From positions 150,514-214,513 of the forward strand of contig NZ_RJSF01000019.1 of NCBI RefSeq assembly GCF_003725535.1: 64,000 nt of DNA, given 5' to 3'. Source of the stretch: Nocardioides pocheonensis (GTDB lineage: Bacteria > Actinomycetota > Actinomycetes > Propionibacteriales > Nocardioidaceae). A program made the position numbers and the translations under genes. The first letter of the stretch is position 1, and the number at the start of each line of letters is the position of its first letter. Shown piece after piece: positions 4,597-27,531 of the stretch. Under the pieces are notes generated by a model. The model did no database searches. It was not told the origin of the DNA and was given only the letters and a program-made list of their open reading frames with translations.

Positions 4597-5895
4597 TCAG
4601 CGGTCGAGCGAGGCCGGGCTGGGGTCGCTGGTGAGGTTGGTGCTGGTCGCGTTCGTGACCGAGATCCCGCTGCCGTTGCCGACCCCGTCGGCCGACCTGA
4701 CCACGACCGGACCGCCGCTGACGCCGAACTTCGAGGTGCCGTTGAAGGTCATCGACGCGTTCGGTGCGTAGATCCCGCCGGTGACCTCGGTGCCGCCGTT
4801 GCCCTGCAGCTCGAGAGCGTTGGGGTTCTTGCGGTCGTAGATGATCGCGAACCCGGTGTAGCCGGGCGCCCCGGCCGCGATGCTCAGCGCGCCGTTCTTG
4901 GCGTCCAGGCGGCCGCCCGTCCCGGCGACGTCGGTGTCGAGGCAGGCACGCACCGCAGCGGTCGTGCCGCAGGTGAAGTAGAGCGTGACCCCGCCGGAGC
5001 TCTTCAGCAGCGAGTGGTTCCCCTCCTGCCACAGCCCGGTGATCACGTAGAGGCCCGGGGCGAGCGTGCAGGTGTCGTTGTTGCCGAGCGAGACGTTGCC
5101 GTAGACGCCGGGCTGGATGGTCGCGTTGCAGCCGGCGACGTTGCCGCGGACCTGCGCCGGCGTGGCCGGCATGGCCAGGGAGGCGAACGGGTCGGCGAAC
5201 GGCGCCGTCTGCTGCGGGTGCGGTGAGTAGTTGGAGCTCGTGATCGTGTCGGGGTCCAGACCGTTGACCGTCCCGGCGACGAGGATGCCGCCCGCGGTCC
5301 AGAAGGAGTTCGGCCCCGAGGTGATGCTGCCGTCGACGGCGATCGAGGCGGCCGAGACGGTGAAGTCGGAGTTGTTGGTGTCGACGTCGCCGAGGAAGCA
5401 GAGGGCGCACGACCCGGAGACCGGGCTGGCGACGACGGCGCGCGCCTGCGTCGAGATCGTGTAGGTGCTCACGCCGTACACCGCGCCGAAGCCGGCCCGC
5501 ACGGCCTGGGACGGCATGACGACGCGCACCTTCGTCGGCGAGGTCGCTGCGTCGAAGGAGATGCACTGGTTGCCCGGATCGGGCTTGTAGGTCTGGGCCC
5601 CGGCGTCGACGCAGCCGGACCAGCCCGTCGCCGAGTCGACCCCGAAGTTCTTCTGCGCGTACGTCTTGGCTGCCGCCACCGCGCCGACGAAGTCAGGGGT
5701 GCCGGTCATGTCCGGGTAGAGCGCCGTCGCTGCGGCCAGCGCCGAGGCGTCAGACGCGATCTGCGAGGCCTGCTTCGTGTCGCGTGCCAGGCCGAGGTCG
5801 ACGACCAGGGCGGCGATCCCGAACAGCACGACGCACGTGACCAGCGCGACCAGGATCGCGATCACGCCGCTCTCGTCGGTACGCCGGCGGCTCAC
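4597..5895 (-). CDS. TadG-like secreted or pilus-associated protein (tadG1)
   Basis: This 432-residue protein begins SRRRTDESGVIAILVALVTC: basic residues, a Gly-Val junction and one membrane helix, as in TadG-type Flp pilus proteins. The exported part is rich in Gly, Ser, Thr and Asn and contains GGIYAPNASMTFNGTSKF, consistent with a repetitive beta-fold. Paired cysteines (GSCALCF and others) suggest disulphides outside the cell. No von Willebrand A domain was recognised. GTG overlaps the upstream tadE1 stop (GTGA), so the two are co-translated. Its start SRRRT resembles that of tadG2 at 7253. The exact function is unknown. Confidence 0.75.
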   Translation of the reverse strand: MSRRRTDESGVIAILVALVTCVVLFGIAALVVDLGLARDTKQASQIASDASALAAATALYPDMTGTPDFVGAVAAAKTYAQKNFGVDSATGWSGCVDAGAQTYKPDPGNQCISFDAATSPTKVRVVMPSQAVRAGFGAVYGVSTYTISTQARAVVASPVSGSCALCFLGDVDTNNSDFTVSAASIAVDGSITSGPNSFWTAGGILVAGTVNGLDPDTITSSNYSPHPQQTAPFADPFASLAMPATPAQVRGNVAGCNATIQPGVYGNVSLGNNDTCTLAPGLYVITGLWQEGNHSLLKSSGGVTLYFTCGTTAAVRACLDTDVAGTGGRLDAKNGALSIAAGAPGYTGFAIIYDRKNPNALELQGNGGTEVTGGIYAPNASMTFNGTSKFGVSGGPVVVRSADGVGNGSGISVTNATSTNLTSDPSPASLDR

Positions 5896-6413
5896 GTGCA
5901 CCACGACCACCCGTCCCCGCTCGGGTCGGTGTCGGTGGCCGGGAACGTCCCCGTGGGCGCCGGCGTGTCCACCTCGATCGCCATCTGGGTCTTGGCCCGG
6001 ACGTAGCCGCCGTTGGGGACCGGCACGAGCCCGCCGGCCGCGACGGACTTCACGATCGCGCAGACCAGCAGCGGCTTGCCCTTGGTCCAGCCGGACGGCG
6101 TGACCACCCGTGCGGCGATGGTCCCGGTCACGGGCGCCACCTGGTCCTTGGTGTAGCACTTGATCAGGGCGGCGGTCGTGGTCGCGCCGGTGCAGGCCGG
6201 GACGGTCTGCACGACCCCGGTGCGCGCACCCTGACGGACGCCCTGGCGGACCTGCAGGTAGTCGTTGAACAGCAGGCCGTACTGGATCATCCCGAAGAGC
6301 AGCGGGAAGACGAACACCGCGACGAGGGCGAACTCGACCGCGGATGCTCCCTCGCTCGCGGACGGTCCACGGCGGGCGGGTCCCCGTGCCGCCCGTCGTG
6401 CTGGCTCTCCCAT
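5892..6413 (-). CDS. TadE-like pseudopilin (tadE1)
   Basis: This 173-residue protein has a basic N-terminus, then EG followed by ASAVEFALVAVFVFPLLFGM. The Glu at position +5 after Gly and the following hydrophobic helix are the class IV/TadE prepilin signature processed by TadV-type peptidases. I chose ATG 6413, which gives a short leader, over the longer open frame. It is the first gene of the leftward pair with tadG1. TadE proteins are minor pilins needed for Flp pilus assembly. No peptidase or ATPase gene is nearby. Confidence 0.78.
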   Translation of the reverse strand: MGEPARRAARGPARRGPSASEGASAVEFALVAVFVFPLLFGMIQYGLLFNDYLQVRQGVRQGARTGVVQTVPACTGATTTAALIKCYTKDQVAPVTGTIAARVVTPSGWTKGKPLLVCAIVKSVAAGGLVPVPNGGYVRAKTQMAIEVDTPAPTGTFPATDTDPSGDGWSWCT

Positions 6414-6625
6414 GACCGTCCTGCCCCCGTCGAACGTTGCCGCTGCGTCGCGGGCGCTCCCACACCGCTCGCCGCGCGTGGTCCGAGGGGCTCGGACCCG
6501 GCACCACTGAGTCTGGTCGGGACCGGGGGAGGGCACATCCGCTGTTCGGCCGACGTACTCGAGGCAGGGGGGCTGTCCGTTTCGGCACGTTCGGTCAGGT
6601 GGCCATCGGCCGGTCGGTCAGCGAC

Positions 6626-6667
6626 GTCTAGACCAAAAGTCCCAAACGTGAGACCTGGCGGTCGAAT
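6626..6667 (+). promoter_or_regulatory. Divergent tad promoter region with CTAGACCAAAA element
   Basis: GTCTAGAC (6626-6633) is a perfect palindrome. CTAGACCAAAA (6628-6638) is identical to 9428-9438 in front of tadE3. Aligning the two promoters puts a weak -35 at 6639-6644 (GTCCCA) and a -10-like TCGAAT at 6662-6667, with the same spacing. The region lies between the leftward tadE1 and the rightward tadE2, so one regulator could control both. Confidence 0.5.
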
Positions 6668-6743
6668 CGTCGTTATTGTGAGCATCCGGGCCGAGAGCGC
6701 TGGGTCTCTGGGCTGTACCACGATGTCTTTTGGGGGATCGTCG

Positions 6744-7256
6744 ATGGCAGCGAGGCGATCGCGCGATGACCGCGGCGCGGCGGCTGTCGAGTTCGCCCTC
6801 ATCGCGCCGTTCCTCTTCATGCTTCTCTTCGGCATGATCACGACCGGTCTCGCCTACAACGACCACGTCGCGGTCGCCAATGCGGTGCGGGAGGGCGCCC
6901 GGCTCGGGTCTGCCCTCGACTACACCCAGGGTGGTTGGGCCACGTCGGTGCGCGACCGCGTGAAGCAGACCTACTTCAACTCCGGCTCGACGCTCACCGA
7001 CGCCCAGATCTGCGTCAAGATCGTCGACAGCACGCACAACAACGCCAACAGCTCGAACTCCTGGACGGGAGCCAGCTGCGGGACGGCCCCGGACCTGACC
7101 AGCTTCACGATGGCCACCGGCAGCTGTGCCGTCGTGGTGTGGGTGAAGAAGCCCGAGACCATCTTGCTGGTGGTCGCCCCCACGCTGAGCTTCGACATCG
7201 GGGCGAAGTCAGTGACCTACTACGGCAGGACCCAGGGGTCATGCACGGCGTCGTGA
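6744..7256 (+). CDS. TadE-like pseudopilin (tadE2)
   Basis: This 170-residue protein starts MAARRSRDDRG and continues AAAVEFALIAPFLFMLLFGM, with Glu at +5 after Gly, the TadE-type prepilin signature. ATG 6744 is preceded by GGGGGA at 7 nt spacing; earlier in-frame ATGs lack one. The mature part has two or more Cys residues and ends YYGRTQGSCTAS. Its N-terminal helix closely matches tadE1. GTGA overlap couples it to tadG2. Confidence 0.78.
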   Translation: MAARRSRDDRGAAAVEFALIAPFLFMLLFGMITTGLAYNDHVAVANAVREGARLGSALDYTQGGWATSVRDRVKQTYFNSGSTLTDAQICVKIVDSTHNNANSSNSWTGASCGTAPDLTSFTMATGSCAVVVWVKKPETILLVVAPTLSFDIGAKSVTYYGRTQGSCTAS

Positions 7257-9340
7257 GCCGGCCCCGGGCAGCGGTTCGGTCGCTGCGTCCGCAGCGGCGC
7301 CGCGACGAGCAGGGTGTGGTCGCAGTCGTCGCCGCCATCAGCGTCACGTTGCTCCTCATGTGCGCGGCCCTGGTGCTCGACTTCGGCCTGGTGCGGGTCG
7401 ACCGGCAGATCGACAAGTCGGTCGCCGACTCGGCGGCGATCGCCGGCATGCACGGCCTCATCGCCGGCGACAGCAAGCCCCATCCGTTCATGGGTGTGTG
7501 CAGTGCGCTGCGCTACCTGCAGCAGAACAACGACCGCTTCAGCGGGCTCACCGACTCCAGCGGGACCTGGACGACGGGCGCGACGCCGGCGGTCGCGGCG
7601 CAGAACGGCTGCACCAGTGTCACGGCCCAGGCGCAGACGTGCACGGCGAACACCCCGTCGACCTGGGCGAAGTTCGCCTGGACAGGCTCTCTGGACGGCA
7701 AGCCGCTGACCGTCACGATCCAGAGCGGCTACCTGCTGACGGCGACCACGGGCTGGAACGAGGACGCCCTGTCGGCGGCGGCCGCGGACCTGGGCGACTC
7801 CGCCCAGGGCGGCTGCGACCAGCTTTCCGTGACGATCGCGCAGAGCCGCAGGCCCGGCCTGGGCAGCCTCGCGACCGGGTCCGACCTGCAGACCGCGGTC
7901 CGCACGGTCGCCCGCGTGAAGAAGGGTCCGGGGGGATATGCCCCGGCGATGTTGCTGCTCAAGCAGACCGGCTGCAACATCCTCACCGCGGGCTCCTCGG
8001 CCGGCGGGTCGCAGATCAAGGTGGCCGGCGTCTACTCCACGGCCAACGGACTGTCGCAGCCCGGCACGATCCACTCCGACTCCGACGGCTCGGGTTGCGG
8101 CAGCAACGAGAACATCTTCACCGGGCAGGCGAACTCCGGGATCGTCGCGTACGCCGCACCGCTGTCCACCGGTGCCGTGGACACGTCCAAGCCCGGCCAG
8201 ATCACCGCCTACGCGGCGAACCTGGGCCTCAGCGGCTCCGTGCTGCGTGACTCCGACAGCAACGTGTGCGGTTCGCTCGGTCTCTACCCCGGCGGCACCT
8301 GTCCCGGTAAGACCGTCACCGGCCGCGCGCAGGTCTTCCGCCAGCCGGTGGACGAGCGCTACCTCTCTGCGGTGCAGACCATGCGCGACAACGCCAATAC
8401 CGCGTTCGCGGCCGCTTCGTCCTGGCCGTTGAGGCTGAACAACTGCACCCCGACCGCGGCCCAGCTCACCGCCCTGAACCTGACCCTGACCGCCAGCTCG
8501 CAGCTCTACATCAACTGCAACGCGAACAGCGGCTTCAACCCCTCGCCGGCCGTGGCCACCATCAACGCCGGGACGATCGTGTTCTCCGGGACGGTCAAGC
8601 CGAGTGGAGTCCTGAAGCTGCCGAACGCCACCCACGTGTACGTCGCCGGCGACAGTGGTGACGCATTCTCACTGGGCAACGGCAGCACCTTCAGCATGCA
8701 CACCGGGGCGTCGGACGCGAACGTCTCCGGGGGCCTGTGCTCGAACGCCGCGACCAACGTCGCGAACAAGGCAGTCCTGGTCGTCCAGAACGGCGACTTC
8801 AAGCAGACCGGTGGCACGATCCAGCTGTGCTACACCACGGTGCTGATGATGGGTGGACAGACCAACGCCTGCATGCCGTCGGCACCGAGCACGGCAGCCC
8901 CGAACCCGACAACCCCGTGCGGCGGAAGCAACGGGACGGGTCAGTTCACCCAGACCGGAGGCAACGTCGACTGGACGGCGCCGAACCGGTACGACGCCAT
9001 GATGCTGTCCGACGGAAACGCAGACCCGACGAAGTCGGGTGAGTGGGCCGATCCCGAGGGGCCCGAGGACCTCGGTCTCTGGAGCGAGAGCGGCGGTATC
9101 TCGAGCAACCCGAAGTACCAGATGACGGGCGGTGGCTCGGTGCACCTCGTCGGGGTGCTGATGGCGCCGAACGCCCAGCCGTTCATCCTGTCCGGTCAGT
9201 TCAACCAGACTCTCGTCAACGCCCAGTACGTGGTCAGCAGCATCCAGCTGAACAGCAACAACACGAGCATCAACATGTTGGTCGACCCGAACGCAGCCGT
9301 CACGGTGGGCACTCTCACGAGTGTCGGCCTCGTGCGCTGA
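7253..9340 (+). CDS. Large TadG-like exported protein (tadG2)
   Basis: At 695 residues this is one of the two large proteins of the island. It starts SRPRAAVRS and has one membrane helix (GVVAVVAAISVTLLLMCAAL), then a long Gly/Ser/Thr/Asn-rich exported region with many scattered Cys. The C-terminus contains HLVGVLMAPNAQPFILSGQ, similar in form to the APNA segment of tadG1, which hints at a shared beta-helix or polymer-like fold. GTG 7253 is preferred because it overlaps the tadE2 stop exactly as in tadG1; ATG 7241 is the alternative. No enzymatic motif is visible. Confidence 0.72.
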   Translation: MSRPRAAVRSLRPQRRRDEQGVVAVVAAISVTLLLMCAALVLDFGLVRVDRQIDKSVADSAAIAGMHGLIAGDSKPHPFMGVCSALRYLQQNNDRFSGLTDSSGTWTTGATPAVAAQNGCTSVTAQAQTCTANTPSTWAKFAWTGSLDGKPLTVTIQSGYLLTATTGWNEDALSAAAADLGDSAQGGCDQLSVTIAQSRRPGLGSLATGSDLQTAVRTVARVKKGPGGYAPAMLLLKQTGCNILTAGSSAGGSQIKVAGVYSTANGLSQPGTIHSDSDGSGCGSNENIFTGQANSGIVAYAAPLSTGAVDTSKPGQITAYAANLGLSGSVLRDSDSNVCGSLGLYPGGTCPGKTVTGRAQVFRQPVDERYLSAVQTMRDNANTAFAAASSWPLRLNNCTPTAAQLTALNLTLTASSQLYINCNANSGFNPSPAVATINAGTIVFSGTVKPSGVLKLPNATHVYVAGDSGDAFSLGNGSTFSMHTGASDANVSGGLCSNAATNVANKAVLVVQNGDFKQTGGTIQLCYTTVLMMGGQTNACMPSAPSTAAPNPTTPCGGSNGTGQFTQTGGNVDWTAPNRYDAMMLSDGNADPTKSGEWADPEGPEDLGLWSESGGISSNPKYQMTGGGSVHLVGVLMAPNAQPFILSGQFNQTLVNAQYVVSSIQLNSNNTSINMLVDPNAAVTVGTLTSVGLVR

Positions 9341-9413
9341 CGCCCCCCGTCCTGGGCTCTGGGACCATCGGCCGTCATCCGGGGCCGATCGGCCCTTGCG
9401 TCCCGGAGCGGAC

Positions 9414-9467
9414 TGGTCTAGGCCAAACTAGACCAAAACGGACATTTCCCACATTTTCCCTTAGTCT
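9414..9467 (+). promoter_or_regulatory. tadE3 promoter with upstream inverted repeat
   Basis: TGGTCTAG (9414-9421) and CTAGACCA (9428-9435) form a perfect 8-bp inverted repeat with a 6-nt spacer. Directly downstream lie CGGACA (9439-9444), a 17-nt spacer, and TAGTCT (9462-9467), a good -35/-10 pair. An inverted repeat abutting the -35 is typical of an activator site. The element CTAGACCAAAA recurs at 6628. Confidence 0.65.
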
Positions 9468-9502
9468 CTCTGGTACGGGGGGGACCGGGGAGGACGTAGG
9501 GG

Positions 9503-9922
9503 ATGTGCGCTCGTCGCGCAAGGCGTTCTGAGCGGGGGGCCATGGCGGTGGAATTCGCCTTGGTCTTCCCGATTGTGTTTGCGGTGATGCTCGGGGTCAT
9601 CCAGTACGGCGTGTACTTCTGGGGTCGGTCGACGGCGGCGGCGAGTGCGCGCGAGTCGGCGCGCCAGCTCGCGGTCGGCACCGACTGGACGTGCAGCCAC
9701 GACCAGGCGGTGGCCAACACCAACCGAGCCGGCAAGAACGTCGTGGTCACGCGGACCTACCTCAACGACGACAACGCCGCGAAGATCGGTGACCTCGTGC
9801 AGGTGACGGTGACCGCGAAGACGCTCGCTCCGTCGCTGCTCCCGGTGCCGGACAGTGGCGCGATCACCGAGGTCGCCACCGCCCGGGTGGAGAACATCCC
9901 GAGCACGCCGGTGGCCTGCTGA
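9503..9922 (+). CDS. TadE-like pseudopilin (tadE3)
   Basis: This 139-residue protein reads RSERG then AMAVEFALVFPIVFAVML, with Glu at +5, followed by YGVYFWGRSTAAASARESAR, typical of the TadE/TadF helix continuation. AGGA at 9491-9494 gives 8 nt spacing to ATG 9503. The mature domain is short and ends in a Cys. It is the first gene of the third tad group and its stop overlaps the next start (TGATG). Confidence 0.78.
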   Translation: MCARRARRSERGAMAVEFALVFPIVFAVMLGVIQYGVYFWGRSTAAASARESARQLAVGTDWTCSHDQAVANTNRAGKNVVVTRTYLNDDNAAKIGDLVQVTVTAKTLAPSLLPVPDSGAITEVATARVENIPSTPVAC

Positions 9923-10392
9923 TGCGGCGGACATCGATGCGGCGCTCGGCGCGGCAGGACGAGCGCGGTGCGGCGGCCCTCGAGGCGGCGTTCTTCCTCA
10001 CCGTCGTGCTGATCCCGTTGCTGCTCGGCGTGATCACCTACGGGATGTACTTCTGGAAGGCCCAGCAGGTCGCGCCGCTCTCGCAGCGTCTCCCGCTGGA
10101 CAGCATCGTCGGGCAGTTCAACTGCGCCCAGCTCGTCGACCGGGTGAAGACCACCGTGCAGAACGCGCTGCCCAGCCTCACCGGACTGGTGCAAGGCCCG
10201 TTGCCGCTGACCGCCATCGGCGTGAACGTCGTCAACGTGCTGCCCACGGTGGGCGTGGACGTCTCGGTCTCGATCACGATCCCGGGTGCCAGCTCGCTCG
10301 GCGGGCTGCTCCCGCTCCCCAACGGCGGTTCGATCGTCACCGAGGCGACGTACCGCCTCCAGAACGTCGAGCTCACCACGGCGGGGTGCTGA
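9922..10392 (+). CDS. TadE/TadF-like pseudopilin (tadE4)
   Basis: This 156-residue protein has RQDERG then AAALEAAFFLTVVLIPLL, keeping Glu at +5 but with Leu-Glu-Ala-Ala in place of Val-Glu-Phe-Ala, so it is a divergent member. The region ITYGMYFWKAQQVAPLSQ matches tadE3. The mature part is hydrophobic and rich in Val, Leu and Gly, and ends TTAGC. ATG overlaps the tadE3 stop, and tadG3 starts right after its own stop. Confidence 0.75.
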   Translation: MRRTSMRRSARQDERGAAALEAAFFLTVVLIPLLLGVITYGMYFWKAQQVAPLSQRLPLDSIVGQFNCAQLVDRVKTTVQNALPSLTGLVQGPLPLTAIGVNVVNVLPTVGVDVSVSITIPGASSLGGLLPLPNGGSIVTEATYRLQNVELTTAGC

Positions 10393-10393
10393 C

Positions 10394-12385
10394 ATGACCG
10401 TTCCGACCTTCCTGCTCCGGCACCTGCGGACGTCGCGGCGGCGCGACGAGCACGGGGTGATCGCGGTGGTCACCGCGATCGCCGCCACCGTGATGCTCGT
10501 CGCCGGCGCGCTCGCGATCGACCTGGGCAACACCTGGGCCCGTCGCGGCAACCTCCAGGGCCAGGCCGACCAGGCGGCGCTGTTTGCCGCGCAGTACCTG
10601 CCGGCCAACGACAGCGCGGGCCGCACCCGGGCCGCGAAGGCGGCGGCGTACTACATCGTCTGCCACCCGGTGCCGGGCCAGCGCGAGATCGACAGCTCGA
10701 TCCCCGCCACCTGCCCGGCGAGTGCCAGCGACGCCTCCCTGGACACGTACGCCGCCCAGCTGCTGGCCTCGGGCAAGGTCACCTTCCCGACGATCGACAA
10801 CAGCACCGGCACCTACGTCCAGGTGACCACGCCCCCCGCCCGGATCGACTTCGGCTTCGGGGTGGCCGCGGGCAAGCAGAGCTCGACCCAGGCGAAGTCC
10901 GCGACCGCGCACGTGGGAACGCCCGGGTCGGTGTCGCCGATGTCGCTGTCGCTGAACTGCCTGCTCAGTGCGGCGATCAACCTGCCGGGCGGCCTGGGCA
11001 GCTCGCTCAGCGGGCTCCTCCCGCTGAACTACATCGCGCCCGGACCGATCACCGTCGACAACGTGATCACGAAGTGGCCGTCGTCGGGCATGACCAAGAG
11101 CAACACGATCGGGATCGCCTCGCTGACGCCGGGCTCGGCCACCCAGAACATCGACCCGGGTCCGGGTCTGATGACCGGCGCCGGGCTCACGCTGCTCCAG
11201 CCGATGCGCCTCGTCTTCGCCCTGGGGGACCAGTCGGGAACCGCGGTGGGTTCGCTGCCGTACTCCGACATCACCGGTGTGAACCTGGTCGCCCTCACCG
11301 GCACCTTCACGGTGCCCGCGGCGGTGTACGACAAGGTCGGCACGTGGCAGGTCAAGCTCGCGGTCAAGCAGCTGGACGGCAGCTGGAAGTACAGCCAGCA
11401 GGACTACGCCTACCCGGTCAACATCCCGTCGGTGACCGCCGACCTGCTCGGCTGCGCCCGGCTGATCAAGACGCCGCGCGACCTGCAGGTGGGTACGCCG
11501 GGCAACCTCGACTACAGCCTCAAGGCGGGCCTGGACCACCCGCTGAACTACAACCCGAACATGCTCACGATCAACACCACGTCGATCACCAACGTGCAGA
11601 GCATGCTCAACGCCATCAACGCCGTCACCGCGCTGACCTCGTGCAACAACCAGCTGCCGAACATCTACGACAACGGCGGGGTCCATCCGACCGCGAACTG
11701 CGTGATGCCGGAGCAGGGTGCGAACACCTACAAGGAGTTCACCGACGGGATGCTCGGCGCGGTGGAGACCGTGCCCGCGGACAACTCCACCCATCAGTCG
11801 GCCTTCCAGGCGGCGGGCCGGCTGGTGTGCACCGACGAGAGTCCGTGCAAGCACTCCTTCACGCTGCCCGGCTTCCCGGGTGAGCAGATCAACGACGACC
11901 AGCTGATGGACTTCGTCAAGCCGGAACGGCGCAACCTGCTCACCGAGTCGATGTTCTTCAACCTGAGCACCTACCTGACGCCGGGCATCCCGGCGGTGAC
12001 ACCCGAGAGCGCGCTGACCTCGGACCTCTACGACTCGGCGCGCTTCATGTGGGTGCCGGTGATCTCCAGCCCGGTGGCGCCGAACAACGCGAACTACTAC
12101 CCGATCCTCACCTGGCGACCGATCTTCGTCACCCAGTACGCCCCGCTGGGCATCGACTCGGTGGACATGGTCGCCGACCTGGTCGACAACTGGGTGAAGA
12201 CCCTGCTGGGCATCGACCCGGCCAACGACCACGGCCTGCTCATGTCCGCGGACGGCACGACGCTGCGCGCGATGCGGTTCATGACGATCGAGCCGTCGGC
12301 GCTGCCCGCGGTTCCGCAGAACTACGACGGCCCGATCACGGACTACGTCGGCAGCGGGCCGAAGGTGGTCCGGCTCGTGCGCTGA
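10394..12385 (+). CDS. Large TadG-like exported protein (tadG3)
   Basis: This 663-residue protein starts MTVPTFLLRHLRTSRRRDEH and has one membrane helix (GVIAVVTAIAATVMLVAGAL). After it comes IDLGNTWARRGNLQGQADQA, the conserved TadG/Flp-pilus region, then a large exported domain. The C-terminal half is not Gly/Asn-repetitive as in tadG1 and tadG2 but contains well-ordered segments such as WRPIFVTQYAPLGIDSVDM. I recognise no catalytic motif. It begins 1 nt after tadE4 and ends the island. Confidence 0.72.
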   Translation: MTVPTFLLRHLRTSRRRDEHGVIAVVTAIAATVMLVAGALAIDLGNTWARRGNLQGQADQAALFAAQYLPANDSAGRTRAAKAAAYYIVCHPVPGQREIDSSIPATCPASASDASLDTYAAQLLASGKVTFPTIDNSTGTYVQVTTPPARIDFGFGVAAGKQSSTQAKSATAHVGTPGSVSPMSLSLNCLLSAAINLPGGLGSSLSGLLPLNYIAPGPITVDNVITKWPSSGMTKSNTIGIASLTPGSATQNIDPGPGLMTGAGLTLLQPMRLVFALGDQSGTAVGSLPYSDITGVNLVALTGTFTVPAAVYDKVGTWQVKLAVKQLDGSWKYSQQDYAYPVNIPSVTADLLGCARLIKTPRDLQVGTPGNLDYSLKAGLDHPLNYNPNMLTINTTSITNVQSMLNAINAVTALTSCNNQLPNIYDNGGVHPTANCVMPEQGANTYKEFTDGMLGAVETVPADNSTHQSAFQAAGRLVCTDESPCKHSFTLPGFPGEQINDDQLMDFVKPERRNLLTESMFFNLSTYLTPGIPAVTPESALTSDLYDSARFMWVPVISSPVAPNNANYYPILTWRPIFVTQYAPLGIDSVDMVADLVDNWVKTLLGIDPANDHGLLMSADGTTLRAMRFMTIEPSALPAVPQNYDGPITDYVGSGPKVVRLVR

Positions 12386-12544
12386 TGCCGGCCGCCAGGG
12401 GTCGATCTCGGCGACCCGGATACGCCCCCGGGCGTCCGTTCCGCATCCACTGCTGCCCCGTGGCGCTCGCCGCTCCACAGCGAACGCCCCGGGCGCGGCA
12501 CGGGTAGCCGCTCCTCGGGTTCGCTGCTCGGCGGAGGTGGACCG

Positions 12545-12910
12545 ATGAGCACAGGACGGCAGAACGGCGCCCTCGGCGCGTACGGCGAGCGCGTGGCGGC
12601 GCGCCACCTGGTCGAGGAAGGCCTGGAGCTGCTCGACCGCAACTGGCGGTGTGACGCCGGCGAGATCGACCTGGTCCTGCGCGACGGCGAGGTGCTGGTC
12701 TTCTGCGAGGTCAAGACGCGCACCGGCACGGCGTACGGGCACCCGCTGGAGGCGGTCGACGAGGTGAAGACCCGGCGCCTGGTCCACCTGGCTTCGCGGT
12801 GGATCGACGCCCACGGGGTCGTGCCCGCGGACGTCCGCTACGACGTGGTCGCGGTCCTCAAGTCGCCCCGAGGCGCCGCCGAGGTGGAGCACGTGCGGGG
12901 GCTGGGCTGA
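12545..12910 (+). CDS. yraN: YraN/UPF0102 family endonuclease-like protein
   Basis: This 121-residue protein has the PD-(D/E)XK-like core GEIDLVLRDG followed by VFCEVKTR, with the acidic residues and Lys in the expected order. The family is annotated as endonuclease-like but its biological substrate is not established. A good SD (GGAGG) lies before ATG 12545. TGATG overlap couples it to comM, and the yraN-comM-dprA order is standard in actinobacteria. Confidence 0.92.
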   Translation: MSTGRQNGALGAYGERVAARHLVEEGLELLDRNWRCDAGEIDLVLRDGEVLVFCEVKTRTGTAYGHPLEAVDEVKTRRLVHLASRWIDAHGVVPADVRYDVVAVLKSPRGAAEVEHVRGLG

Positions 12911-14499
12911 TGTGGGCCAGCACCCGCACCGTGTCGTTGCAGGGAGCGGTGGGCCACGTGATCGACGTCCAGGTGGACGTCAGCCAGGGGCAGATCGCCA
13001 CGAACCTGGTGGGGCGTGCGGACGCGTCGATCAACGAGGCCCGCGACCGCTGCCGAGCCGCGATCGAGAACAGCGGCTACCACTGGCCGACCAGCCGACG
13101 CATCACGATCCTGCTGTCCCCGGCCGACCTCCCGAAGCGTGGGCCGCACTTCGACCTGGGGATCGCCGTCGGCGTGCTCGCCGCCGGCGAGGAGGAGTTC
13201 CCGGCAGGAGCGCTCGACGACGTGGTGCTGATCGGTGAGCTGACGCTCGACGGGCGGCTGCGGTGCGTTCCCGGTGTGCTGCCCATGGTGATGTCGGCCT
13301 CGGCCCGCGGCATCACCCGGGTGATCGTCCCGGAGCCCCAGGTCGGAGAAGCCGCGCTGGTGCCGGGCGTCGAGGCGTACGGCGCCCGGTCGCTGCGCCA
13401 GGTGGTCGCCCTGCTCCGGGGCGAGCAGGAGATCCCGGAGGCGCCGCCGGTCGAGCCGCCGACCGGACAGCTGCTGCTGAGCTGGCGCGGCGAGGCCCGA
13501 CTCGAGGACGTCGACCTCGTCGACGTGCTCGGCATGGAGGACGCGCGCTTCGCCCTCGAGGTGGCGGCCGTGGGCGGCCACCACCTGCTCCTCACCGGCC
13601 CGAAGGGGGCCGGCAAGACCACGCTCGCCGAACGGCTGCCGACGATCCTGCCGGACCTGACGCCCGAGGAGTCCCTCGAGCTCACCGCGATCCACTCCCT
13701 GTGCGGAGCGCTCCCGGCGGCGACCCCGGTGCTCACCCGACCGCCGTTCCGCGCGCCGCACCACTCCGCCTCGCGCGCGGGCATCCTCGGAGGAGGCAGC
13801 GGTCGAGTTCGCCCGGGTGAGGTGAGCAAGGCCCACCTCGGTGTGCTGTTCCTCGACGAGTTCCCGCTGCTTCCGAGCGACATCGTCGAGGCCCTCCGAC
13901 AGCCGCTCGAGAGCGGCGAGATCACGATCGCCCGCGGTGACGAGGACGCCACCTATCCCGCTGCAGGGATGCTCGTGCTCGCGGCGAACCCGTGCCCCTG
14001 TGGCGAGTACCACCCCTACAGCCGCGACCACCGGTGCACCTGCGGCGAGGTGAAGCGTCGCGACTACCGGCGCAAGCTGTCCGGCCCGATCGCCGACCGG
14101 ATCGACATCACCCGCTTCGTCGAGCCGGTCAAGCCGCACCAGCTGCGCGACCGGTTCGCGGCACCGGAGTCGTCGGCGACCGTGCTCGCCCGCGTGACCC
14201 TCGCACGGCAACGGCAGCGCGCCCGGTACGCCGACACTCCCTGGCGGCTGAACGCGCACGTCCCCGGACCGCTGCTCCGGGAGTGCTGGCCCCTCGACGC
14301 TGCCGCAGGACAGCGGCTCGACCAGGAGGTCTACGGCGGCGCCCTGACCCGGCGGGGCGCGACCCGGGTCCACCGCGTCAGCTGGTCGGTCGCGGACCTC
14401 CGCGGGATCGAGCGCCCCGGGCTCGACGAGCTCGAGGTCGCCCTCCGCCTGCGCGCTGCTGCCCCGCTGGACCTGGCCATGATCGGCGGCGCCGCGTGA
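12910..14499 (+). CDS. comM: ComM/YifB family Mg-chelatase-like AAA+ ATPase
   Basis: This 529-residue protein has an N-terminal Lon-protease-like domain, then an AAA+ core: Walker A GPKGAGKTT at 230-238 and Walker B GVLFLDEFPL at 311-320. Four cysteines at 362, 364, 376 and 378 (PCPCG, CTCGE) are the family's zinc-like insert. In naturally competent bacteria ComM is a helicase that promotes branch migration during transformation; in actinobacteria its role is less clear. It is coupled to yraN (TGATG) and to dprA (GTGA). Confidence 0.93.
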   Translation: MWASTRTVSLQGAVGHVIDVQVDVSQGQIATNLVGRADASINEARDRCRAAIENSGYHWPTSRRITILLSPADLPKRGPHFDLGIAVGVLAAGEEEFPAGALDDVVLIGELTLDGRLRCVPGVLPMVMSASARGITRVIVPEPQVGEAALVPGVEAYGARSLRQVVALLRGEQEIPEAPPVEPPTGQLLLSWRGEARLEDVDLVDVLGMEDARFALEVAAVGGHHLLLTGPKGAGKTTLAERLPTILPDLTPEESLELTAIHSLCGALPAATPVLTRPPFRAPHHSASRAGILGGGSGRVRPGEVSKAHLGVLFLDEFPLLPSDIVEALRQPLESGEITIARGDEDATYPAAGMLVLAANPCPCGEYHPYSRDHRCTCGEVKRRDYRRKLSGPIADRIDITRFVEPVKPHQLRDRFAAPESSATVLARVTLARQRQRARYADTPWRLNAHVPGPLLRECWPLDAAAGQRLDQEVYGGALTRRGATRVHRVSWSVADLRGIERPGLDELEVALRLRAAAPLDLAMIGGAA

Positions 14500-15659
14500 C
14501 GCGTGGGCCGCTCGACCCGGAACGCGCCGCGCGGGTGGTGCTGAGCCGCGTGGGCGAGCCGGGCGACCCGCGCCTCACCGGCCTCGTGGCCGAGCTCGGC
14601 GCGGTCACCGTCCTGGAGTCCCTGCGTGAGCAGGGCCTGGCCGGTCAGCTCAGGGAGGACCTGGCGGCCCGCCTCGAGCGGGTCGACCCGGTGGTGGAGC
14701 TGGAGCGGGCCGCCCGCCTGGGCATCCGGTTCCTGACCCCGGCCGACGACGAGTGGCCGCGTGGGGTGGACGACCTCGCGCACGGTCCGCTGCTGCACGA
14801 GCGCGGGGGAGTGCCGGTCGGGCTCTGGGCGAAGGGGTCCGCCCGCCTCGACTCGTCGACCGCGCGGTGCGTCGCCGTGGTGGGCTCGCGGTCGGCCACG
14901 ACGTACGGCGCGGCCGTCGCCGGCGAGATCGCGGCGACCCTCGGTGCGGCCGGCCGCACCGTGGTCTCCGGCGCCGCCTTCGGGATCGACCAGGCCGCTC
15001 ACCGGGGCGCGCTCGCCGTCGAGGGCCCCACGATCGCGGTCCTCGCGTGCGGGGTCGACCGGGCCTACCCTGCGGCCCACAAGCCTCTGCTCGACCACAT
15101 CGCCGACGTCGGGGCGGTCGTGTCGGAGGCTGCGCCCGGGTGCGCCCCCACCCGGATCCGCTTCCTGGCCCGCAACCGCCTCATCGCCGCGATGTCCCAG
15201 GGCACGCTCGTGGTCGAGGCCGCGATCCGGAGCGGGGCGCTCAACACGGCCAACTGGGCAGCCAGCCTGAGCCGGACCCTCATGGGCGTCCCCGGGCCGG
15301 TGACGAGCGCACCCTCGGTGGGCGTGCACCAGCTGATCCGGGCGCGCGGCGCGTTGCTGGTCACCGACGGCCACGAGGTCCTCGAGGCGGTGTCACCGGC
15401 CGGTGAGCACACGGTCGCGTCGCTCCACGCGGAGCCGCACGCCCGCGACCTGCTCACCGCCGAGCAGCGTCAGGTGCTCGACGCCGTCCCGGTGCAGCGC
15501 GGCGCGGAGGCGGCGCAGATCGCCCGCACGGCCGGTGTGGCGGCCGTGCGGGTCACAGCCGCCCTGGGCGTCCTGAGTGCGGCCGGGCTGGTCGAGCACG
15601 CCGCCGGACGGTGGCGGCTCGCGTCCGGCGACCGGGATGCCGTCGCGCCTGCAGGATGA
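14496..15659 (+). CDS. dprA: DNA-processing protein DprA
   Basis: DprA binds incoming single-stranded DNA and loads RecA. This 387-residue protein has the Rossmann-like core: VVGSRSATTYG around 128-138, SGAAFGID at 158-165, then ACGVDRAYP and RNRLIAAMS. A C-terminal winged-helix segment follows (EAAQIARTAGVAAVRV). GTG 14496 overlaps the comM stop. Whether the organism is naturally competent cannot be judged here, because dprA is widely conserved in non-competent actinobacteria. Confidence 0.93.
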   Translation: MTRGPLDPERAARVVLSRVGEPGDPRLTGLVAELGAVTVLESLREQGLAGQLREDLAARLERVDPVVELERAARLGIRFLTPADDEWPRGVDDLAHGPLLHERGGVPVGLWAKGSARLDSSTARCVAVVGSRSATTYGAAVAGEIAATLGAAGRTVVSGAAFGIDQAAHRGALAVEGPTIAVLACGVDRAYPAAHKPLLDHIADVGAVVSEAAPGCAPTRIRFLARNRLIAAMSQGTLVVEAAIRSGALNTANWAASLSRTLMGVPGPVTSAPSVGVHQLIRARGALLVTDGHEVLEAVSPAGEHTVASLHAEPHARDLLTAEQRQVLDAVPVQRGAEAAQIARTAGVAAVRVTAALGVLSAAGLVEHAAGRWRLASGDRDAVAPAG

Positions 15660-15675
15660 CGCCCGCCCGGCTTCG

Positions 15676-15681
15676 TAGGCT
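15676..15681 (+). promoter_or_regulatory. -10 box of a leaderless xerC promoter
   Basis: TAGGCT ends 6 nt before the GTG start of xerC, implying a transcript that starts at the codon. It lies in the 28-nt gap after dprA. Confidence 0.5.
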
Positions 15682-15687
15682 GACGGG

Positions 15688-16608
15688 GTGCGCGACCTGC
15701 CCGAGGAGTTCGCGAGGGCGCTCGGAGAGTACGAGCGTCACCTCGTGTCCGAGCGCGACCTCACCTCCCACACCGTGCGTGCCTACCTCGGGGACGTCTC
15801 GGAGATGCTGGCGCACGCGGCTGCCCTGGGGCTCTCCTCGCTCGACGAGCTGGACGTGCGCACGCTGCGCAGCTGGCTGGCCAACCAGCAGGTGCGCGGC
15901 AAGGCGCGCACGACGATGGCGCGCCGGGCCACCGCGGTGAGGGTCTTCACGGCGTGGGTGCTTCGCACGGGACGAGCGCACTCCGACCCCGGTGCCCAGC
16001 TGGGCAGTCCCAAGGCGCACCGCCCGCTCCCGCTCGCGCTCGACGTGGCCGAGGCCCGGGCGCTGCTCGACGCTGCCGCCGCCTCGGCGGACGACGGCAG
16101 CCCGGTGGGGCTTCGCGACGCGGCCATCCTCGAGCTGCTCTACGCCACCGGGATCCGGGTGGGCGAGCTGTGCGGCCTCGACGTCGACGAGGTCGACCGA
16201 GCCCGCCGTGTCGTCCGGGTGTTCGGGAAGGGTCGCAAGGAGCGCACCGTGCCGTACGGCGTGCCGGCCGACGCGGCCCTCGGACGCTGGCTCGACCGGG
16301 GCCGCCCCGCGCTGGTCGTCCCCGGCGCCGGAGCCGCGCTCTTCGTCGGGGCGCGCGGCCGGCGGATCGACCAGCGCGCCGTGCGGGCCATGGTGCACCG
16401 TCGGCTCGGAGACGTGCCCGGCGCGCCCGACCTCGGCCCCCACGGCCTGCGGCACACCGCCGCCACCCACCTGCTCGAGGGGGGAGCCGACCTGCGCACC
16501 GTCCAGGAGCTGCTCGGCCATGCGTCGCTGGCGACCACGCAGATCTACACCCACGTCACCGCAGAACGGCTCCGAAAGGCATACCAGCTGGCGCACCCCA
16601 GGGCATGA
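15688..16608 (+). CDS. xerC: Tyrosine recombinase XerC
   Basis: This 306-residue enzyme resolves chromosome dimers with XerD at dif. The N-terminal SAM-like core-binding domain is followed by the catalytic domain with Arg157 (ATGIRVGE), Lys181 (GKGRKER), His252 and Arg255 (HGLRH), His278 (LGHAS) and Tyr287 (IYTHV). All catalytic residues are present. Its position between dprA and rpsB is the usual one for actinobacterial xerC. The 3' end overlaps the opposing M23 gene by 53 nt. Confidence 0.93.
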
Positions 16609-26012: not shown

Positions 26013-26417
26013 ATGGCCGATGCGCCCCCGCCGGAGCGGCTCGCCCGGCTCAACCGCCTCGAGGCGCTGAGCGACGACGACCTGCAGACCGTCGTGCGGG
26101 CCGGGCGTCACGTCCACCTGCCCGCGGACTGGTCGCTGATCTGGGAGAAGACCCCGGCCGACAAGGCCTACCTGATCGTCGACGGCGAGGTCTCGGTCCG
26201 CAAGGGAGGCGTGGAGGTGACGCGGCTCGGCCCCGGCGACGTCATCGGCGAGATGGCGATCGTCAACCACCGCCTGCGGTCGGCGAGCGTGGTGAGCCTG
26301 ACCCCGCTCGAGGTCATCCACTTCACCAAGGAGTCGCTGGAGCAGCTGCTCGACGAGGTCCCGGCGTTCGGTGAAGCGTTGCGCGGTACGACGGCCGACC
26401 GCCTCGGGCCCGCCTGA
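26013..26417 (+). CDS. Cyclic-nucleotide-binding domain protein
   Basis: This 134-residue protein is a lone CNB domain. The barrel reads KAYLIVDGEVSVRKGG, then LGPGDVIGEMAIVNHRLRSASV, where GDVIGEMAI and the following Arg form a phosphate-binding-cassette-like segment. No DNA-binding domain is present, so it is not a complete CRP. ATG 26013 has GAGGAGGA 8 nt upstream. It lies 4 nt before an adenylate cyclase gene, which suggests it senses or buffers the cAMP that gene makes. That pairing is an inference. Confidence 0.88.
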   Translation: MADAPPPERLARLNRLEALSDDDLQTVVRAGRHVHLPADWSLIWEKTPADKAYLIVDGEVSVRKGGVEVTRLGPGDVIGEMAIVNHRLRSASVVSLTPLEVIHFTKESLEQLLDEVPAFGEALRGTTADRLGPA

Positions 26418-26421
26418 GGCC

Positions 26422-27531
26422 ATGCCCGCCGCACGCGGCGACTCGCCGCTCGACCCGCAGCAGGTCGTCGACCTGCTCGAGGAGCACCTGCTCGGCAGCC
26501 ACCCCACCCTGACCGGACCGCAGATCGCCGAGGAGATCGGGATCAGCATGGACCTCGCCCGCCAGCGCTGGCGCTCGCTGGGGTTCACCGCGGTCGACGA
26601 CGACGCGGTGGTCTTCACGGAGGCCGATCTCGAGGCCATGCGGCTCACCCAGCGGCTGCGCGAGATCGGGATGATCACCGACGACGACGAGGCCGCGCTG
26701 ATCCGGACCCTCGGCCGCAGCTTCGCCCGGCTGGCGGAGTGGCAGCTGGCCCTGCTCGGGCGCGAGATCGACCCGACGACCCTCACGGGTGATGAGCTCG
26801 ACGCCGTGATCGGCGAGGTGACCCCGCTGATCGAGCAGGTGCAGAACTACGTCTGGCGGCGACACGTGCTCAACGCCGCGTCCCGGCTGCTGCTCGCCCC
26901 CCAGGGGGACGAGGGCGCGGTGAGCACCGCGATCGGCTTCGCGGACATCGTCGACTACACCCGGCAGACGCGGGCGCTGACGCAGGAGGAGCTCGGGCGC
27001 CTGGTCGACGTCTTCGAGGCGCGGGCGCTGGCGATCGTGACCGGGCACGAGGGCCGGATCATCAAGACCATCGGCGACGAGATCCTCTTCGCCGCCGACC
27101 GGCCGGAGGACGCCGCCCGGATCGCGCTGGACCTCGTCGAGGAGCAGGACCGCGACCCGGACTTCCCCCGGTTGCGGGTCGGGCTGGCGTGGGGACCGGT
27201 GCTGCACCGGCTCGGCGACGTCTTCGGGCCGACCGTGAACATCGCCGCGCGACTCACGTCGGTCGCCCGCCCGGGCCGGGTGCTGACCGACAAGGAGCTG
27301 GCCGAGGCCCTGCGCGACCACCCCGACTTCCGGCTCCGCCGGATGCGCCGCACGTCGGTCAAGGGCTACCGGCGGCTCGAGCCGTGGAAGCTCGGTCGGG
27401 CGGCCGACGACGACGACGAGCTACCGCCGGCTGCCGCCTATCTCCAGGAGAAGGGGGAGGACCTCCGCCGCGTCGTCGACGAGATGCAGGCGCGGGCCCA
27501 GCGCGCCGCGGCCGCCGAGGACCTCGAGTAG
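26422..27531 (+). CDS. Class III adenylate cyclase with N-terminal regulatory domain
   Basis: This 369-residue protein makes cAMP. The catalytic domain has the two metal-binding Asp residues (Asp175 in FADIVDYT and Asp219 in IGDEILF), Lys215 and Asp266 as the ATP-specifying pair, and Asn273 and Arg277 of VNIAAR. The N-terminal 150 residues contain a helix-turn-helix-like start (ISMDLARQRWRSLGF) and a helical module resembling the autoinhibitory domain of mycobacterial Rv1264. No membrane segment is present. The 3' end overlaps the opposing LOG gene by 111 nt. Confidence 0.92.
   Translation: MPAARGDSPLDPQQVVDLLEEHLLGSHPTLTGPQIAEEIGISMDLARQRWRSLGFTAVDDDAVVFTEADLEAMRLTQRLREIGMITDDDEAALIRTLGRSFARLAEWQLALLGREIDPTTLTGDELDAVIGEVTPLIEQVQNYVWRRHVLNAASRLLLAPQGDEGAVSTAIGFADIVDYTRQTRALTQEELGRLVDVFEARALAIVTGHEGRIIKTIGDEILFAADRPEDAARIALDLVEEQDRDPDFPRLRVGLAWGPVLHRLGDVFGPTVNIAARLTSVARPGRVLTDKELAEALRDHPDFRLRRMRRTSVKGYRRLEPWKLGRAADDDDELPPAAAYLQEKGEDLRRVVDEMQARAQRAAAAEDLE

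Follow-up and report, generated by a model that had tools for sequence, protein, structure and literature searches.

A predicted TAGACCA operator at tad pseudopilin and SsgA-like genes in the Marmoricola clade

Background

Regulons defined by a shared operator are a known kind of system. AraC/XylS-type activators bind an asymmetric box in direct repeats with a spacing of about 21 bp, the proximal box lying by the -35. The dre palindrome of DasR is TGGTCTAGACCA. In Streptomyces, ssgB, ssgR, and whiB are among the direct targets of BldM or BldM-WhiI (PMC4125116). Streptomyces BldC binds direct-repeat sites, and its targets include ssgB and wblA; its AATT(N3-4)(C/G) consensus is described as too loose for prediction (PMC6428758). 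A literature search for the 7-mer TAGACCA gave only unrelated matches among the matches listed, and a regulon of this kind with a TAGACCA operator was not found in the literature searched, of which coverage was partial.

The tad island and its shared element

The window (the whole stretch of Nocardioides pocheonensis DNA analyzed, 64 kb) contains TadE/TadG pseudopilin modules in a row (PF07811 and PF13400), of which one is divergent and encoded on the minus strand and the other two are on the plus strand. The minus-strand module consists of a tadE (5892-6413, start codon predicted; PF07811) and a tadG-like gene (4597-5889; PF13400). On the plus strand, a tadE (6723-7256, start codon also predicted; PF07811) is followed by a tadG-like gene (7241-9340) with a weak PF13400 match below the curated cut-off (E 0.0015). 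Then come another tadE (9503-9922; PF07811), a second tadE-like gene (9922-10392; PF07811), and a tadG-like open frame (10286-12385; PF13400) whose true start is probably near 10390. The island is flanked by lepB-rnhB on one side and UPF0102-yifB(comM)-dprA-xerC-rpsB-tsf on the other, with neither a Tad ATPase nor a platform gene detected in it. An apparent complete Tad/Flp operon lies elsewhere in the genome (L306, G000:C35:98000-116000), with genes that read from their ORF sequences as putative flp, tadE, tadG, and tadZ-like genes, and larger genes. Its promoters carry no TAGACCA.

Within 4597-16608 of the window, the tadE/tadG modules adjoin yifB(comM) and dprA, both of which are linked with DNA uptake elsewhere among bacteria. 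In another actinobacterium, Micrococcus luteus, transformation is reported to depend on the Flp pilus (PMC4322843). Also encoded in the window, at 26371-27531, is a protein of the class III adenylate cyclase type that carries a regulatory domain (PF00211 and PF16701) and is unrelated to the element described here.

An 11-mer, CTAGACCAAAA, occurs in exact copies at 6628-6638 and 9428-9438 of the plus strand, as an earlier note on this DNA had reported. Allowing up to one mismatch, no further copy was detected in the 64-kb window (0.02 expected from shuffles). A scan of the 4.92-Mb genome recovered these two exact copies only, both at tadE promoters, and a single copy with one mismatch, located within apparent coding sequence.

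At the second of these positions (site 2), TGGTCTAG (9414-9421), six bases, and CTAGACCA (9428-9435) form a perfect inverted repeat; a shuffled window is expected to contain 0.12 such repeats when up to three mismatches are allowed. Sequence and comparison with congeners resolve the site as TGGTCTA-N8-TAGACCA, with the upstream box on the minus strand (9414-9420, TGGTCTA on the plus strand) and the promoter-proximal box on the plus strand (9429-9435). Three base pairs later follow, also on the plus strand, a -35-like hexamer, CGGACA (9439-9444), a 17-bp spacer, and a -10-like hexamer, TAGTCT (9462-9467), 26 bp past the proximal box. The coordinates bear out the earlier claim that a perfect repeat lies directly upstream of CGGACA-N17-TAGTCT, a pair for which a strict sigma-70 consensus scan made no call.

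Site 1 (GTCTAGACCAAAA, 6626-6638 of the plus strand, with its box at 6629-6635) lies between the divergent tadE genes. Its distance (from 6628) to TCGAAT (6662-6667) equals that at site 2, as had been noted, but TCGAAT is not conserved in a congener with the same island (G060), which speaks against the -10 role proposed for it.

Conservation at tad promoters

The TadE proteins of G060 are only about 39% identical to those of the window, yet the island is syntenic and has three boxes. The first, GGTCTAGACCA (L067:5251), is the equivalent of site 1 and lies between the corresponding divergent tadE genes. A 15-bp block, CGTCGTTATYGTGAG, is found exactly 40 bp after CTAG in both genomes (CGTCGTTATTGTGAG at 6668-6682 of the window, listed on the plus strand, although the strand is not certain; CGTCGTTATCGTGAG in G060) and is the probable promoter core of site 1. 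The single box of site 1 is about one helical turn further from the conserved core than at site 2. The second G060 box, CTAGACC, precedes the next tadE and is accompanied by CGGACA-N17-TACCCT, and the third forms part of TGGTCTACCGAAAACTAGACCAAAAGGGACA-N17-TAATCT upstream of the third tadE. In Nocardioides marmorisolisilvae (G053), TGGTCTA-N8-TAGACAT-ATA-GGGACA-N17-TACTCT precedes an apparent orthologue of the third G060 tadE.

The composite TGGTCTA-N8-TAGACCA-N3-SGGACA-N17-TANTCT is thus kept in both congeners, with two mismatches in one half in G053, and shuffled sequence totaling 640 kb did not match a relaxed version of it. In an anchored comparison of the window's genome (G000) with G060 and G053, identity was 73-82% for the inverted repeat, 83-100% for the -35, and 83% for the -10. 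The 17-bp spacer (18-29%) and the 60-bp flanks (25-40%) were at background, the contrast expected from selection on a promoter and operator. Exact TAGACCA is absent from most other congeners' tadE promoters, and the tad sites are confined to three of the species examined.

Profile of the box

Seventy-one aligned sites, which share TAGACCA by construction, yield a profile with an AT-rich tract at positions -4 to -2, a nearly free base immediately before the 7-mer, and T or C favored two bases past it. This profile and its free base describe an asymmetric box that does not need CTAG. The earlier description of CTAG as the motif's center, and with it the candidate of CTAG as an essential center, was rejected: the core is TAGACCA, and A, G, and T before it are equally common in conserved arrays. 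Two other readings were discarded. The palindrome TGGWCYRGWCCA is a poor predictor, found at 3 places in its own genome versus 12 for its reversed control, and at 26 bp the -10 is too far away for the box to be the -35 of an alternative sigma factor.

SsgA-like genes

Because CTAG is rare, CTAGACCA has far fewer genomic copies (20) than its reversed control (356). Half of the 20 lie upstream of a coherent gene set: seven precede four SsgA-family genes (PF04686), and three are at tad promoters, those of two tadE genes. The random occurrence across the genome that the earlier note had named as evidence against its proposal did not materialize.

Most SsgA-like sites are direct repeats of two or three boxes, 21-22 bp apart. 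In the Marmoricola clade, 30 of 35 SsgA-like loci have two TAGACCA boxes spaced 21/22 bp when up to two mismatches are allowed (0.04 in shuffles), and 23 of the 35 have an exact pair (0 in shuffles), the 35 including paralogues within one genome and so not all being independent. Many also have an extra palindromic box, TGGTCTAGTCCA, one unit upstream. The Nocardioides, Kineosporia, and Streptomyces SsgA-like loci included for comparison showed no TAGACCA arrays. At the ssgA-like genes no -10 is evident at N26 from the box, so the mode of action there may differ from that at tad.

One class of ssgA-like paralogues (L107, L108, and L113; similarly L142, L146, and L149) has a conserved CGTGTCATG about 13 bp past the proximal box. 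Its complement contains GACAC, the WhiA motif. A lone CTAGACCA box (L117:4001) occurs just before a WhiB-family gene that sits between penicillin-binding protein and arsA-like ATPase genes, a wblA/whiB4-like neighborhood. The window's genome and G060 share another conserved sequence, TTCGACCCTAGACCAC (L110:3980-4010 and L098:1495-1530), in the intergenic region between an enoyl-CoA hydratase-like gene and a divergent gene of no assigned family. The box there was considered as a tRNA remnant, but ARAGORN finds none.

A clpX-linked target

The regulon search relied on patterns and targeted stretches of the genome, and targets with degenerate boxes may be missed. A genus-wide tandem-box scan identified one more recurrent target, a gene between clpX and valS (gene X). 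Its product, putatively secreted or located in the membrane, belongs to no Pfam family and has an N-terminus reading ...AEHRRPLAAFL... and one hydrophobic segment (L201, L178, L179, and L196). The tandem-box footprint is present upstream of gene X in six congeners; in the window's genome, gene X was not detected in the clpX-valS interval. The proximal box lies 25-26 bp before TANNNT, the same distance as at tad. Overall, TAGACCA-N26/27-TANNCT occurs six times in 24 genomes, and five of these occurrences, all with N26, are at tad or gene X promoters. The clpX-linked -35 is poor and variable, whereas neither the box nor its spacing from the -10 varies, a pattern that fits an activator. Since gene X joins the tandem layout of ssgA-like genes to the tad promoter geometry, it argues for one factor.

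A candidate regulator and its alternatives

At orthologous tad, ssgA-like, and clpX-linked promoters the element is conserved above its flanks, as a regulatory site would be. At the tad and clpX-linked promoters, the box by the -35 with N26 to the -10 resembles class II-type activator geometry. We propose that a single sequence-specific transcription factor of the Marmoricola clade recognizes TAGACCA. The two inverted boxes of tad site 2 (TGGTCTA-N8-TAGACCA) would put the protein at about -60 to -39, and the proximal box, both there and at gene X, would lie at about -45 to -39 from the expected start. Positioned directly upstream of a weak -35 (SGGACA), the protein would most likely activate sigma-70-type transcription by contact with RNA polymerase, in a class II-like manner; the putative regulator probably works as an activator bound immediately ahead of the -35. 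The box of site 1 and that of the middle G060 tadE would each sit upstream by roughly one more helical turn, a displacement compatible with binding to the same face of the helix.

The occurrence of the box at both tad and SsgA-type division genes suggests that one regulator controls the two sets. The wider job of the factor would be at the SsgA-like cell-division genes, with their two or three direct-repeat boxes, and the clpX-linked putative secreted-protein gene would combine both layouts. The tad pseudopilin island, with sites in three species, looks like a later recruit to the regulon. We infer both that a single protein serves all boxes and that it activates rather than represses. The explanation as a whole, with one Marmoricola-clade factor, activation at tad, and a broader role at ssgA-like genes, seems to us reasonably probable. 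A regulator acting on the island as a unit had been suggested earlier. Conservation across species and rarity in the genome give good support to a regulator at both tad promoters; confining it to the island would be too narrow a view, with the box also at ssgA-like and clpX-linked genes.

Similar positioning could serve repression, with a protein that abuts the -35 and keeps polymerase off tad and ssgA-like promoters until it is released by a signal. At tad, 3 bp separate the end of the box from the -35, and Streptomyces ssgB is repressed by BldC via direct repeats (PMC6428758). A poor, variable -35 at a fixed distance between box and -10, as at the clpX-linked promoters, is more typical of activator dependence, however, and we consider a repressor operator a minor though real possibility. 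Two regulators with similar half-sites, one for tad and one for ssgA-like genes, are unlikely. Such related but different proteins could account for the inverted arrangement at tad versus the direct one at ssgA, and for tad sites being limited to three species, but the 7-mer is identical and rare, and the clpX-linked promoters unite the tandem ssgA spacing with the tad distance between box and -10.

Binding by a DasR/NagR-type (GntR/HutC) regulator, which would couple pilin and division genes to aminosugar supply, is suggested by the resemblance of sites 1 and 2 to dre and by the ssgA arrays that start with TGGTCTAGTCCA. Among genomic sequences that differ from the dre core at no more than one base, TGGTCTAGGCCA at 9414-9425 is the only one to retain CTAG. 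Against this, the 71 aligned boxes are asymmetric, with AT-rich bases rather than TGGTC before TAGACCA, and the genome has no perfect dre core where a canonical dre regulon would have several. The near-palindromic sites sought at several loci came down to one TAG-centered site within one mismatch genome-wide, and we now find this reading very unlikely. It is barely credible that the repeated 11-mer is a functionless remnant of a tadE promoter duplication. Paralogous tadE/tadG modules do stand side by side, but sites 1 and 2 have nothing obvious in common apart from the box, the conservation of the element in other species exceeds background, and unrelated genes carry it too. Genome rarity, shuffle controls, ssgA pairs, and three-way conservation already contradict it.

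Comparison with known systems

The element provides SsgA-like genes outside Streptomyces with a concrete cis signal that spans the genus, and it would tie surface pseudopilins to the same control. Opinion is evenly balanced on a broader reading, that a hitherto undescribed Marmoricola-clade regulator coordinates SsgA-type division-site proteins with extracellular TadE/TadG pseudopilins, as a developmental regulon of an actinobacterial lineage outside Streptomyces in which tandem TAGACCA replaces the Streptomyces ssgB regulators. The regulator could be sought with two baits already at hand, the fragment 9405-9450 and an ssgA-like array (L109:4975-5040).

Like BldM, the proposed factor would be a developmental regulator with sites upstream of SsgA-family genes, but the BldM and BldM-WhiI consensus sequences, TCACcCgnncGgGTGA or TGnnCCGnnCGGGTGA (PMC4125116), have no similarity to the tandem boxes. 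The BldM Group I site, TCACcCgnncGgGTGA, was rejected on a comparison by eye of the published consensus with the box profile. The head-to-tail direct repeats recall BldC, which has ssgB among its targets, and an AT-rich tract precedes TAGACCA. However, BldC repeats are degenerate, AT-rich, and loosely defined in the published description, whereas here a strict 7-mer recurs with a 21-22 bp period, and the fit appears poor. The half-site CTAGACCA is shared with DasR dre and NagR sites, as is the palindromic form that some first boxes and tad site 1 take, but most TAGACCA boxes are asymmetric and tandem. Although the tad site is an inverted repeat, the TAGACCA sites appear to share with those of AraC/XylS-type activators the asymmetric box, the direct repeats about 21 bp apart, and the proximity to the -35.
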